Source of the DNA: Candidatus Saccharimonadota bacterium | GTDB taxonomy: Bacteria > Patescibacteriota > Saccharimonadia > Saccharimonadales > Saccharimonadaceae | NCBI GenBank assembly: GCA_017519305.1 | Contig: JAFWSN010000001.1 | Span: forward strand, 1-64,000 | Length of the DNA: 64,000 nucleotides | Direction: 5' to 3' | Shown here: piece after piece, positions 5,201 through 57,470 of the stretch | Position numbering within the stretch: the first letter of the stretch is position 1 | Layout: each line of letters starts with the position of its first letter | Made by a program: the position numbers and the translations under genes | The notes under the pieces: generated by a model | What the model was told of the DNA's origin: nothing | The model's input: the letters and a program-made list of their open reading frames with translations, nothing else | Databases searched by the model: none

Positions 5201-6467
5201 GAGCGGGCGTGTTCAGACTGGGTTGACTAAAGACGCACAAATTGCGCGCTCGTCATTACAGAATAAATTGAAAATTGAGAGAGATGCCGAGAATAAAATG
5301 GACGAAGTTTACGCCACATCTGAATCTCTCAGAGCTGGTATCGCCGCTAATACAGCGAAAGCGACATCTAAGAGGGAAGAAATATTCCAATCTCAGCTCA
5401 GCAATGGCCAGCTCAAGATTGGTGGCGTAACGGTAAACCAAAACGACAGCGCGAATATGTCCATTGCGCATGCGCGATTGCTAGAACAGTTGCAGACCCT
5501 TCCTGTCAACAGTAATGAACGCAGGGATGTTGAGGCGCAGCTCCGAGTCCTTCAGAGCCAAATGATGAAGAAAGACGAAGGCCGAGAGGCTGTGAAGGTG
5601 AACTATGAAAGTGCTATTGCTGGATTACACGCCAAAGGACATGCTGATGGTTCAGCGGAAGTCAATAGTATTAAAATGGCTGTATCTAACCTCATGGACC
5701 AATATGGCGACAAAATCAAAACCACCGACCGTGGAGCGCACGCTATGTACAGCGAGTTTACTTCGGATACTCCTAGAAATGGTGCCACCTCTGTTATAGA
5801 ATCGGTAGCGAACGGTATTAGAAACAATGGATATCGTAGTGAAGGCTGGAAATCTCTCACAGCTGAGACTATAAGGAATTACGACGACGGTTATCTAGCG
5901 GCGGTCGCATCTACAATGAGTGGGCTTAGGGCCAAGGTTCATCAGCGTACGGCGAGCGAAGAGGAGTTTAAGCAATATAGTAAGTTCCAAGAATTGATGA
6001 GGGATTACTATAGTCCGGCAAATGACAATTATCGAAGTCCGAAAGTCAATGCGCTTATTGGAGATAAAGACTATTGGGCAAACCCGGATGCTGTAACCGC
6101 TCAAGGTCCTGCGCCGAAACGTGGAAACGCTTATGGACCAACACCAACAATGGCTCCAACGGCAGCCCCAGCCCCAGCTCCAACATCAGCTCCAGCTCCG
6201 GTCCCAACGGCAGCCCCAGCCCCAGCTCCAACATCAGCTCCAGCTCCGGTCCCAACGGCAGCCCCAGCTCCGGTCCCAACGGCAGCCCCAGCCCCAGCCC
6301 CAGCTCCAACCGCGGGCTCAACGGATGACGCGGCTCCGACCCCAGCTCCAACAACGGATTCAGAAGTAGATCCAATCATAGCCCCAACTGAGACTCCATT
6401 CCCAGATCCAGCTCCGACCTCGTTTGAGTCAGATGACAGCGACGACGCAGACAGCTACTGGGAATAA
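2196..6467 (+). CDS. Large VirB6/TrbL-like membrane protein with AP-rich tail (type IV secretion-like)
   Basis: The start at 2196 is chosen over an upstream in-frame ATG because AAAGGA precedes it and a signal peptide follows directly, giving 1423 residues. Order: signal peptide (about 1-32, ending VKA-AS); a large extracellular region with several Cys; a cluster of hydrophobic helices (about 570-830) containing a conserved-looking LPNAKKLVFDRWFKLMKS segment; a long charged cytoplasmic coiled-coil-like region (about 830-1300); and a tail of APAP/PTAAP repeats ending in acidic residues. The helix cluster resembles VirB6/TrbL-type inner-membrane components described in Patescibacteria. That assignment is by architecture only. 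No other T4SS gene is in the window. Confidence 0.65.
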   Translation: MKNTKKRLIAISISILAVIICFFVLPMSTVKAASDSSVIFKKTILSAMKNCFGPETIAKSVTIGVSEDTDYKNSDSVFISDALRILLPTKLSNDHITNNSQVADISCRDFFNGVSGTSKTFSGVFKIFGRESLPSYDYLDPNAAQQLANVEKSLEALGYTKTIVAQGPCVKVTVTPSGGGSTDTYGYFCWANNEIMTNMQNAVQNNYTYFVKGPNYDSSWANKFSLNGITPVIVGKVNGESKEIPLAADEVGGVFYLPFSACSGYEPYFGINDDYGEAGEEMIEKTGNLTCMDNFGVNYNIGFEASSVTSLANSGIETGLPVGYSFNISKYDDAYTAALRSLDESYVGNTTTTAQEKFDLYGHYMTNVFSISVGSTTDCVDERPDTGPASGNLVLYTQNGWCKVYIGETAENKSLKVSVFSRTINEGATNQAGSTMYDYSRTLDTRATPTEVLQEMYILPTQHPTISPLNVDGGMIVDPTPGGGGGTGEVDKVDPCYASGESMGWLLCPLVKQVGNALNNLYNDTIKGYLKIDSFLLNVGVDNNDDGKYENNAGTYAAWTTFVNIANIILVIFFLVIIFSQVTGVGIDNYGIKKALPKVIVAAVLINASFLICQLVADLSNIVGNSIENMLTSIGKGILPSDIVDSGVDIGSGGLFRFILDGALTLGAGVAVTTIVYDFVKNGAANAIVGLLIPLLVMALIALVAILFFFVMLGIRKAAVIVLVAVSPIAFACYMLPNAKKLVFDRWFKLMKSMLLVYPLCGLVIGGSNLASSILMASGLQKNFLFYIVNMLLMVVPFFFLPSLITKSMGMIGSLTQKATNTARRFGNKTGDRASNAWKNSEGYKRRQGIRQEKLAEGRAKRTIGKLQDKKNLTENQRAKLAAARETLVQQDKADKDRMLHSSVDWQSGKTSANTLAISKEERETSNLAKAGYYDAATKKQELAMNADYEDTMKYGNKAYAEGKAFVQQQTNKQDFHKIKRFGQTATEYVEPKKDKNGEIVGSGRVQTGLTKDAQIARSSLQNKLKIERDAENKMDEVYATSESLRAGIAANTAKATSKREEIFQSQLSNGQLKIGGVTVNQNDSANMSIAHARLLEQLQTLPVNSNERRDVEAQLRVLQSQMMKKDEGREAVKVNYESAIAGLHAKGHADGSAEVNSIKMAVSNLMDQYGDKIKTTDRGAHAMYSEFTSDTPRNGATSVIESVANGIRNNGYRSEGWKSLTAETIRNYDDGYLAAVASTMSGLRAKVHQRTASEEEFKQYSKFQELMRDYYSPANDNYRSPKVNALIGDKDYWANPDAVTAQGPAPKRGNAYGPTPTMAPTAAPAPAPTSAPAPVPTAAPAPAPTSAPAPVPTAAPAPVPTAAPAPAPAPTAGSTDDAAPTPAPTTDSEVDPIIAPTETPFPDPAPTSFESDDSDDADSYWE
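6160..6315 (+). repeat. Ala/Pro-coding minisatellite in the VirB6-like gene
   Basis: Imperfect tandem units based on 'gccccagctccaacatcagc' and 'tccggtcccaacggca' encode (A/T)PAP(A/V)PT repeats. Long stretches are identical, so the unit number is probably unstable between strains. Confidence 0.85.
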
Positions 6468-41146: not shown

Positions 41147-41223
41147 GGTACCGTAGCTCAGATGGTTAGAGCGTGGGACTCATAAGCCCAAGGTCACTGG
41201 TTCGATCCCAGTCGGTACTACCA
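41147..41223 (+). tRNA. tRNA-Met (anticodon CAT), elongator or Ile2 type
   Basis: A full cloverleaf: acceptor GGTACCG/CGGTACT with G1-U72, D-arm GCTC/GAGC, anticodon loop CTCATAA, T-loop TTCGATC, discriminator A and encoded CCA. The anticodon stem has an A31-G39 mismatch. G1-U72 argues against an initiator (which normally has a 1-72 mismatch with three GC pairs below the anticodon). Lysidine-modified Ile2 cannot be excluded. Confidence 0.93.
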
Positions 41224-41335
41224 TTTTTGTTTCACAAAAAACGGTAGTACGCGGAACTTCGTAAACGGTACTACCATTTTTGTTTCACAAAAAACGGTAG
41301 TACGCGGAACTTCGTAAACGGTACTACCATTTTTT
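41213..41335 (+). repeat. 53-bp tandem repeats of the tRNA-Met 3' end with inverted copies
   Basis: The unit starts CGGTACTACCATTTTTG (the tRNA acceptor strand plus CCA) at 41213, 41266 and 41319. The first two units are identical over 53 bp and the third is partial. Each unit also holds CAAAAAACGGTAGTAC, an inverted copy of the same acceptor end. The last copy runs into the stop codon of the phosphoesterase gene. Several alternative hairpins are possible, some terminator-like. Confidence 0.92.
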
Positions 41336-42262
41336 ATAGCGGCGTTTTACGGATGGTTTAGTACCATCTGATTTTTTATGGCTAATCTCAACCAGTGCGA
41401 CGTTGGCTGGGAAAATAGCGTCAATAAGCCCATACTCTTTAGCCTTAGGGGTAACAGTGGTCACGGCGCCGAGTACTACAAGCTTGCCGCCGTAAAGTCC
41501 CAAGCGCGTATTTTGGTTCGCGAAAATTTTTTTGGTAGCGGTAACAAAGCCGCGGTGGCCGCGCCAAATCTCTTGTAAAATCGGCGGTACAACGCCGTTG
41601 TGCATGTGCCCGGCAAAAACAAAATCAAATTCATCTAAATATTTGCAAACATCTGAGTCTGCCAAATAGGTCGGGGAATGCATTAGAAAAATTTTTGCCT
41701 TATTCTTAGGAAGATTTTTTAGTCGTGCGGCATTCTTCCTAAGTTCATTAATTAAAATCTTTTTATCTTCCGTGTACGGATGTGCTGGCGTATCATAATA
41801 TTCTGGTGGCATCGACAGTCCGAATGCGTAATTCTGCTCATTTTCAAAAACGCCATTATCTAAAACATGAACATTTTTGACGCCGGCCAGACATTCAATT
41901 AGCGGAGACTCTTCGACCGTGTCGTATATGTATTTGCGACGACCGATTCTAACTGGATTATCTATTTCGTAATACGGATCATGGTTACCTAAACAGATAC
42001 AAACCGGCGCAATCTTGCCGAGTTCGGCAAACCAATTTTTAAACTCTTTTTTGCTAGCATCGCTTGCTAGAGCGCCGATATTGTCAATTATGTCGCCAGG
42101 GACAACAATCAAATTTGGCTTAGACTGCTTAGCAAAATCGCTAACGCGGCGATGGTTTTTAGTGAGTTCGCCCGCAAAATGAATATCGGAGATGGCAAGA
42201 ATTTTCTGCGGCGCCAAATCTGATCGGTAAAAACTGTAATGGGAACAGTAGAGCGATTTCAT
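41324..42262 (-). CDS. Calcineurin-like metallophosphoesterase
   Basis: The 312-residue protein carries the dimetal motifs D-x-H (ISDIHF), GD-x-x-D (PGDIID), GNHDP, MHSP and GHMHNG. This order matches YkuE/LpxH-like cytosolic or membrane-surface phosphoesterases. The natural substrate is unknown. Its last codons (W-stop) lie in the third tRNA-Met-derived repeat, so that repeat has shaped the gene's 3' end. Confidence 0.9.
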   Translation of the reverse strand: MKSLYCSHYSFYRSDLAPQKILAISDIHFAGELTKNHRRVSDFAKQSKPNLIVVPGDIIDNIGALASDASKKEFKNWFAELGKIAPVCICLGNHDPYYEIDNPVRIGRRKYIYDTVEESPLIECLAGVKNVHVLDNGVFENEQNYAFGLSMPPEYYDTPAHPYTEDKKILINELRKNAARLKNLPKNKAKIFLMHSPTYLADSDVCKYLDEFDFVFAGHMHNGVVPPILQEIWRGHRGFVTATKKIFANQNTRLGLYGGKLVVLGAVTTVTPKAKEYGLIDAIFPANVALVEISHKKSDGTKPSVKRRYKKW

Positions 42263-42278
42263 AGTAATAGCTTATCAT

Positions 42279-42314
42279 AAAAAATAGCCCCTCAGATGTC
42301 AAATCTGAAGGGCT
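42279..42314 (-). terminator. Terminator upstream of the phosphoesterase gene
   Basis: On the minus strand AGCCCTTCAGAT pairs with ATCTGAGGGGCT (one mismatch), followed by TATTTTTT. It ends the transcript coming from tRNA-Ser and its repeat region. Confidence 0.85.
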
Positions 42315-42436
42315 GGAAGAACCTCTGGCTCGAACCTAGCTTCTTGCAGGCAAGAAGCCTACAAAAATGACCCCTACGGGCCATTTTTCTAGTCTTCCTG
42401 GCGGAAGGGACAGGATAGGAATCCGAGCCCTTCACC
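42315..42436 (-). repeat. tRNA-Ser 3'-end copy and tRNA-like remnant region
   Basis: An 18-base exact copy of the tRNA-Ser 3' end (42399-42416) lies 79 bases beyond the gene. On the minus strand it is preceded by GAAGGG, an inverted copy of the acceptor CCCTTC. Further on are AAAAATG/CATTTTT (42363-42388) and GCTTCTTG/CAAGAAGC (42339-42358) hairpins and a GGTTCGAGCC T-arm-like segment ending TTCTTCCA. No complete second tRNA can be folded. Confidence 0.7.
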
Positions 42437-42465
42437 AAAAACAAAATAAGAGAGCAAGCTCTCTT
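42437..42465 (-). terminator. tRNA-Ser terminator
   Basis: On the minus strand AAGAGAGC/GCTCTCTT is followed by ATTTTGTTTTT. Confidence 0.85.
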
Positions 42466-42477
42466 CTTTCGTTTTTA

Positions 42478-42564
42478 TGGCGGAAGGGACAGGATTCGAA
42501 CCTGCGAAGCTATTAACTTGCTGGTTTTCAAGACCAGTGCCATCAACCACTCGGCCACCCTTCC
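42478..42564 (-). tRNA. tRNA-Ser (anticodon TGA)
   Basis: The 87-base gene has acceptor GGAAGGG/CCCTTCC, anticodon loop CTTGAAA, a long class II variable arm (about CAAGTTAATAGCTTC), T-loop TTCGAAT, discriminator G and encoded CCA. A minus-strand TATAAT is 7 bases upstream. Confidence 0.96.
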
Positions 42565-57338: not shown

Positions 57339-57412
57339 GGCACTGTGGCGGAGTGGTTACGCAGCGGTCTGCAAAACCGCGTACACCGGTTCAATTCCGG
57401 TCGGTGCCTCCA
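57339..57412 (+). tRNA. tRNA-Cys (anticodon GCA)
   Basis: The 74-base gene has acceptor GGCACTG/CGGTGCC, anticodon loop CTGCAAA with stem GCGGT/ACCGC, T-loop TTCAATT, discriminator U73 (an identity element of tRNA-Cys) and encoded CCA. Confidence 0.96.
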
Positions 57413-57470
57413 TTTTTTTCTTCAAAAAATGTTCGGCACCGGGCTACGCCAACGGGCCTCCATTTTTTTG
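57402..57470 (+). repeat. Inverted and direct copies of the tRNA-Cys 3' end
   Basis: Behind the CCA and T-run come AAAAAATG, then GGCACCG (inverted copy of the acceptor CGGTGCC) and an 11-base linker. A direct copy, CGG-GCCTCCATTTTTTT (57453-57469), follows and is missing one T against the gene. The layout matches the tRNA-Met locus. The AAAAAATG/CATTTTTTT pairing makes it a plausible terminator. Confidence 0.82.

Follow-up and report, generated by a model that had tools for sequence, protein, structure and literature searches.

Introduction

The nearest known system to the repeat analysed here is the tRNA-linked repeats (TLRs) of Escherichia coli, including the rtT repeats of tyrT and tyrV (Rfam RtT, RF00391). 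TLRs were first described in 1978, and no function is known for those located in tRNA operons (PMC8144298). There are 22 known TLRs at ten loci, in all of which the last 18-19 bp exactly reproduce the 3' end of the tRNA or rRNA lying upstream (PMC8144298). Transcripts of the rrA/B/F TLRs undergo processing and interact with Hfq and CsrA, and for RrB it was suggested that the repeat serves as an RNase E recognition signal (PMC8144298).

We examined 42 distinct tRNA loci of E. coli K-12, drawn from eleven regions (one containing only one tRNA), and found copies of the tRNA 3' end at 11 of them: tyrT, tyrV, three of argQ/Z/Y/V, five lys genes of the lysT cluster, and proK. At tyrV an inverted arm, GGGGAAGGAT (complementary to ATCCTTCCCC), precedes ATCCTTCCCCCACCACCA, and the inverted arm at tyrT is near-identical to it. 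At proK a 168-bp unit is present zero, one or two times, depending on the strain. The Rfam RtT model matches the E. coli tyr, pro and lys tails.

Here we describe a similar arrangement in a stretch of 64,000 nucleotides (the window) from a Candidatus Saccharimonadota bacterium (contig JAFWSN010000001.1, positions 1 to 64,000), where a tRNA-Met gene is followed by tandem units carrying direct and inverted copies of its acceptor end.

Results

Architecture of the tRNA-Met tail

The tRNA-Met(CAT) gene, probably an elongator, lies at 41147..41223 on the forward strand (ARAGORN; Rfam tRNA, 65 bits). Its final 11 nt, CGGTACTACCA (41213-41223), constitute the source copy D, and the tail continues on the same strand in the order D, P, I, L, D', P, I, L, D', T6. 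The first palindrome, P1 (TTTTTGTTTCACAAAAAA, a T5-GTTTCAC-A6 element at 41224..41241), begins at the first nucleotide after the tRNA, with its T-run abutting the CCA and its A-run preceding I1 (41243..41250), an inverted copy, GGTAGTAC, of the acceptor strand GTACTACC. The loop L1 (GCGGAACTTCGTAAACG, 41251..41267) shares its final CG with the start of D'1 (41266..41276), a direct copy of CGGTACTACCA with CCA at its end. The series is then repeated on the forward strand as the palindrome P2 (41277..41294), the second inverted acceptor copy I2 (GGTAGTAC, 41296..41303) and the loop L2 (41304..41318), and closes with D'2 (CGGTACTACCA) and T6 (41319..41335), from which the final terminator-like hairpin takes its 3' arm and U-run.

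The first-pass annotation of this DNA had described tandem 53-bp units with both kinds of acceptor copy, and this description is confirmed. The unit, CGGTACTACCATTTTTGTTTCACAAAAAACGGTAGTACGCGGAACTTCGTAAA, occupies 41213-41265 and 41266-41318 with 100% identity between the copies, followed by a partial third unit start of 16 nt (41319-41334). Within the window the palindrome core is confined to the Met tail (0 in 100 shuffles), and no further copy of the 53-bp unit was found anywhere in the 786-kb genome. The third genomic match of the motif GGCTWCGCCAACG has no tRNA in its vicinity.

As RNA, the Met tail is predicted to fold much more stably than shuffled sequences (z -4.7). The I-L-D' segment with its A6/T6 flanks gives a stable terminator-like hairpin of -15.1 kcal/mol, in agreement with an earlier proposal that one of the folds available here is a downstream (putative) terminator; a perfectly paired variant of the hairpin reaches -19.5 kcal/mol. 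The Met-tail hairpins were not listed by a simple terminator scan because their loop exceeds the limit of 8 set in that scan.

A convergent ORF of 312 aa, metallophosphoesterase-like by inspection, lies at 41324..42262 on the reverse strand. Its last codon (TGG) and stop (TAG) fall inside D'2 and are complementary to CTACCA, a sequence derived from the tRNA. The protein has another C-terminus in the relative L148, RYKKLRS, compared with RYKKW in the window.

Comparison with E. coli TLRs

Like E. coli TLRs, the window unit is located on the same strand directly downstream of a tRNA gene (or, in E. coli, of 5S), ends in a copy of that gene's own terminus with CCA, and occurs in tandem with a varying copy number. 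The alternating inverted/direct design had been thought to set this locus apart from tyrT; however, the tyrT and tyrV repeats also have an inverted copy before the direct copy, as do lysQ and proK by our own reading of the sequences. The two systems differ in the length of the unit (~168-178 bp in E. coli, 53 bp in the window) and of the copy (18-19 nt in E. coli, 11 nt, or 16 with the T-run, in the window), and the inverted arm in the window spans the acceptor strand plus CC rather than the T-arm and is accompanied by A6/T6 flanks. RF00391 found nothing in the window stretch at E<=1, nor in four element loci at E<=10, and at the gathering score tRNA was the sole Rfam family matched in the window stretch. 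Because D' is 11 nt long, short of the 18-19-bp identity of TLRs, and RtT is not matched, we file the window unit as a TLR-like variant rather than a strict member. Other tails in the genus resemble E. coli TLRs in having copies of 18 or 21 nt and inserts similar to GAGCGAAGCGAG. Tails in E. coli and in Saccharibacteria may either share ancestry or have had two origins.

Frequency of tails downstream of tRNA genes

Within the window's own genome, the last 35 nt of each tRNA at 43 loci were compared with the tRNA's own 250-nt downstream flank, with the flanks of other tRNAs serving as the null. In the direct orientation 8 of the 43 exceeded the 99th percentile of the null (~0.4 expected), compared with 0 of 43 for upstream flanks. 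For larger samples the last 30 nt were scored and a direct copy was counted at a score of at least 20. Direct copies were present at 20/77 tRNAs from the genus (1.35 expected), 35/144 from named Saccharibacteria records, which are draft genomes mostly labelled metagenome-assembled (2.5 expected), and 7/30 from one genome of another family (0.15 expected); these samples overlap in ancestry and, owing to the manner of fetching, are rich in tRNA-Ser and tRNA-Met. Their upstream flanks were near background. Among other Patescibacteria, copies occurred at 2 of 44 tRNAs, 18 of which lack an encoded CCA, and a small non-Saccharibacteria control of seven contigs showed direct copies at 0 of 32.

Among the Saccharibacteria tRNA genes sampled, between about one in five and one in four have a TLR-like tail. 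We found no description of them in Saccharibacteria in the literature, as covered by open-licence papers; earlier descriptions may exist. The first-pass annotation had proposed a survey of tRNA loci in this and related genomes, and had reasoned that orthologous loci free of comparable copies in every relative would mark the tail as a one-off duplication or an assembly artefact. In the survey, tails were present at many tRNAs of the window's genome and of its relatives, orthologous tRNA-Met loci among them.

General architecture of the tails

In many cases the tRNA is followed, in this order, by a terminator-like palindrome, an inverted copy, a loop or insert, and a direct copy up to CCA. Exact copies of at least 13 nt are concentrated close to their tRNA, with 62 located within 350 nt downstream and 3 farther away. 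Their lengths cluster at 17-18 and 20-22 nt over ~20 tRNA types, indicating that the copies begin in the T-loop, and their identity mostly ends at CCA; elsewhere in the genus, for example, copies are 18 nt long at Ser and Ala and 21 nt at Pro, Ile, Leu and Asp. Most tails have an identity block from T-loop to CCA, and the Met block of the window comprises the acceptor end only. For the start of D', its own upstream segment is a stronger pairing partner than the corresponding segments of other tRNAs (median -12.3 vs -8.2 kcal/mol; 69 elements, P = 2e-17, a value to be read as a guide only because related rows are not independent).

Two parts of the tail are shared between tRNAs of different type. 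In the genus the module T6-GTTTCAC-A6 follows the CCA of Ile, Asp, Gln, Ser, Ala, Leu, Val and Met tRNAs. The loop core GGAACTTCGTAAACG is found at Met, Asp and Phe tRNAs in different species, with 10/10 distinct instances lying <=100 nt downstream of the tRNA and none away from tRNAs in roughly 1.2 Mb searched.

The window contains further examples. On the reverse strand, a tRNA-Ser(TGA) gene located by tRNA search (42478..42564) bears a related tail with an exact 18-nt D', ATCCTGTCCCTTCCGCCA (42399..42416), and an I, GGTGAAGGG (42428..42436), capable of pairing with the CCCTTCCGCC end. On the forward strand, tRNA-Cys (57339-57412) adjoins a tail (57413..57469) whose layout matches that of the Met tail: T7-CTTC-A6, I (GGCACCG), the loop GGGCTACGCCAACG, a decayed D' (GGCCTCCA) and T7. 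Tandem arrangement recurs in genome G181, where an 82-bp unit 3' of tRNA-Asp (contig 77, L281) is present as three full copies and one partial copy, identical by eye; each consists of P, AAAAAG, an inverted arm, a hairpin and a 21-nt copy to CCA.

Several tails show local peculiarities. In the tRNA-Ile tail of L278, D' reads CCACAT where L274 has CCTGAT, matching the inverted arm GTGG, a change that on sequence looks like arm homogenisation. The tails of G042 (L238, L243, L143, L241, L247, L255) have longer inserts in the copied T-loop that are similar across different tRNAs; in one example, GCGCA-stem-TTGC-stem-CGAGCAYG, both sides of the stem are changed, and the inserts may represent a structured RNA family. 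At ~1500 of L275 a tRNA-Gln-type unit stands without a tRNA body, CCAGCCA being the only remnant of the tRNA end; it adjoins an apparent gene fragment that has no start codon, and a recombination junction or an assembly chimera is possible.

The Met element in related genomes

The Met element was identified in 7/174 genomes of the genus, including that of the window, and an eighth (G066) has a Met tail with a different loop; most tRNA-Met orthologues are without the tail. Two full units are present in the window only, and the six other genomes have one. I-L-D' is identical or one base off across the seven, while pairs of carrier species differ at 38-75% of the four-fold sites in the prepilin gene next to it. 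P varies in sequence among relatives with its T-run and A-run kept. In the window, as in most relatives, D' leads into a T-run, and beyond D' the sequences of relatives are unrelated.

On a tree of the prepilin (a 129-aa protein; weak support) the carriers are scattered rather than forming one group, so that vertical descent with loss and transfer are both possible. The near-identity of I-L-D' combined with this scatter points either to strong constraint accompanied by many losses or to movement.

Between the close species L148 and L159, and between L191 and L197, unbroken upstream homology ends at the last A of CCA. At tRNA-Ser, L209 has 78 bp more than its sister species L151, a clean filled/empty site that includes an 18-bp direct repeat and has 88% identity in the flanks on both sides; loss by recombination between direct repeats explains this site as well as insertion does.

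The interval from tRNA-Met to tRNA-Ser(TGA) (41224-42477 in the window; also L148, L159, L191 and L197) varies in gene content between sister species. This variable spot is small and bounded by tRNA 3' ends, with the tRNA genes and outer flanks conserved.

Discussion

Our best explanation, which we hold with as much doubt as confidence, is that the tail is a tRNA-linked tail repeat which most likely acts as an intrinsic terminator, tandem and bidirectional, for tRNA-Met and the gene convergent with it, and that a unit single in relatives was recently duplicated in tandem to give the two of the window. Termination is our best guess because of the site between these two genes, and the bidirectional form is the most likely here because an A-run and a T-run flank each I-L-D' hairpin, a symmetrical layout that would allow action in both directions if the tail is transcribed. 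Each short unit is appended to the tRNA gene and consists of D', which copies that gene's 3' end, and ahead of it a palindrome and the inverted copy I, which is able to pair with D'; I might additionally protect the tRNA by stopping D' from competing with the real acceptor strand. We suppose that the tRNA 3' end is the precise point at which units are gained and lost, possibly through local template switching and recombination between direct repeats. Template switching is documented as a maker of such hairpins (PMC8794818).

The window tail resembles known intrinsic bidirectional terminators in its stable stem, preceding A-run, following T-run and convergent genes. It differs from them in that its 3' arm copies the tRNA end and its loop is conserved, and the near-exact conservation of the 17-nt loop exceeds the needs of a terminator. 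Most other tails lack the T-run: it follows D' in only 10/69 copies elsewhere, and no association was detected between copies and a T-run after CCA (P = 0.85). A terminator role for all tails in general does not fit these figures.

Alternatively, the units may be mobile mini-cassettes that insert site-specifically at tRNA 3' ends, each bringing a copy of the target that restores the tRNA and displaces the old end. We consider this unlikely. In its favour are the T-loop-to-CCA extent of the exact copies over ~20 tRNA types, the break in sister-species homology exactly at the last A of CCA, the filled/empty site, the loop common to Met, Asp and Phe tRNAs, the orphan Gln-type unit, and the scatter of carriers, which could reflect mobility. 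The tails also recall tRNA-targeted integrative elements (att), in which such an identity block (present in most tails) likewise restores the tRNA and displaces a 3' copy. However, the tails are 50-170 bp long, without cargo or adjacent integrase, and have a tRNA-specific inverted arm; since I and D' are specific to each tRNA, a single element cannot serve many tRNAs. Just three exact copies lie far from their tRNA, and in four of five genomes there is only one tyrosine recombinase match, consistent with the Xer housekeeping enzyme. In the window's own genome the single PF00589 match is on another contig (C2), and the Met unit itself measures 53 bp. Ordinary recombination suffices for E. coli proK, which varies by whole tandem units.

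Neutral mutational scarring is a further reading that we doubt: slippage and template switching at tRNA/terminator palindromes would create copies that arise and decay without function. Tails do differ between sister species, many have decayed, an inverted copy is the expected product of template switching (PMC8794818), and D' in L278 is altered towards its inverted arm. Such scars would not readily account for an I-L-D' that is near-identical in seven divergent species, or for placement downstream only with boundaries fixed at T-loop and CCA.

More speculative is the idea that tRNA 3' ends form a general docking site in both Saccharibacteria and E. coli, where an unknown enzyme system either writes palindromic cassettes of 50-170 bp from the T-loop-to-CCA segment of each tRNA or inserts them there, so that they stack beside the tRNA in integron-like fashion; we regard this as improbable.

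The first-pass annotation suggested that the alternative folds could regulate tRNA maturation or termination; as a maturation switch, I would pair with the tRNA 3' strand and block or delay maturation until D' is made. The alternative folds behind it stand up, in that I can pair with either the tRNA 3' strand or the next D', the two being mutually exclusive. Co-folding of the precursor in ViennaRNA bears this out: with the tail present, D is predicted to pair with I while the tRNA 5' strand takes D' as its partner, a fold that lies ~5 kcal/mol below the native cloverleaf and reduces the native acceptor probability from 0.96 to about 0. The step from these folds to regulated maturation, in contrast, draws on equilibrium folding, a model that takes no account of co-transcriptional folding, tertiary contacts or modification. 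Moreover, a control with scrambled I likewise loses the native acceptor; I is therefore not the driver of the swap and the model does not support an I-based switch. Transcription would reach the tail only once the tRNA is complete, and most tRNA-Met orthologues do without this tail. We think such a switch very improbable.

We give even less credence to the possibility that the unit yields a processed small RNA with its 3' end set by the tRNA-like repeat, as suggested for RrB. The exact CCA ends of most D' copies and the processed, Hfq/CsrA-bound rrA/B/F transcripts (PMC8144298) would suit it, but the 53-bp unit is nearly all stem and A/T-runs, and RNase E/G (PF10150) was not matched in five Saccharibacteria genomes (G000, G151, G139, G034, G042), whereas the E. 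coli control was. The RNase E role suggested for E. coli therefore cannot apply here and is not general. For RNase Z, nothing above the cut-off was found in the same five genomes; a weak match in the Saccharibacteria set is an ORF of >700 aa that is perhaps RNase J-like. The occurrence of tails with TLR architecture in a distant, genome-reduced lineage in which RNase E/G is unmatched turns the question of their role into a comparative one, and the filled/empty sites, the fixed T-loop and CCA boundaries and the matched inverted arms provide handles on how tails are made and what they do.

Finally, we give next to no likelihood to an assembly artefact or one-off duplication, for which two 100% identical units in a draft assembly might speak. 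For the element itself it is contradicted by copies in other genomes (single at tRNA-Met in six, tandem at tRNA-Asp in G181, with like tandem variation in complete E. coli genomes), and it could bear on the copy number of two only.

Two minor observations lie outside the terminator reading of the Met tail. A sub-threshold match to the sRNA family sX4 (RF02223) at L118 (1494-1644) proved to be tRNA-Ser itself plus flank, and the sequence suggests that the family includes a tRNA-Ser gene. Positions 1-148 and 6153-6308 of the window contain strong tandem repeats of 30/60 bp and 24/48 bp, which are apparently proline-rich coding repeats.
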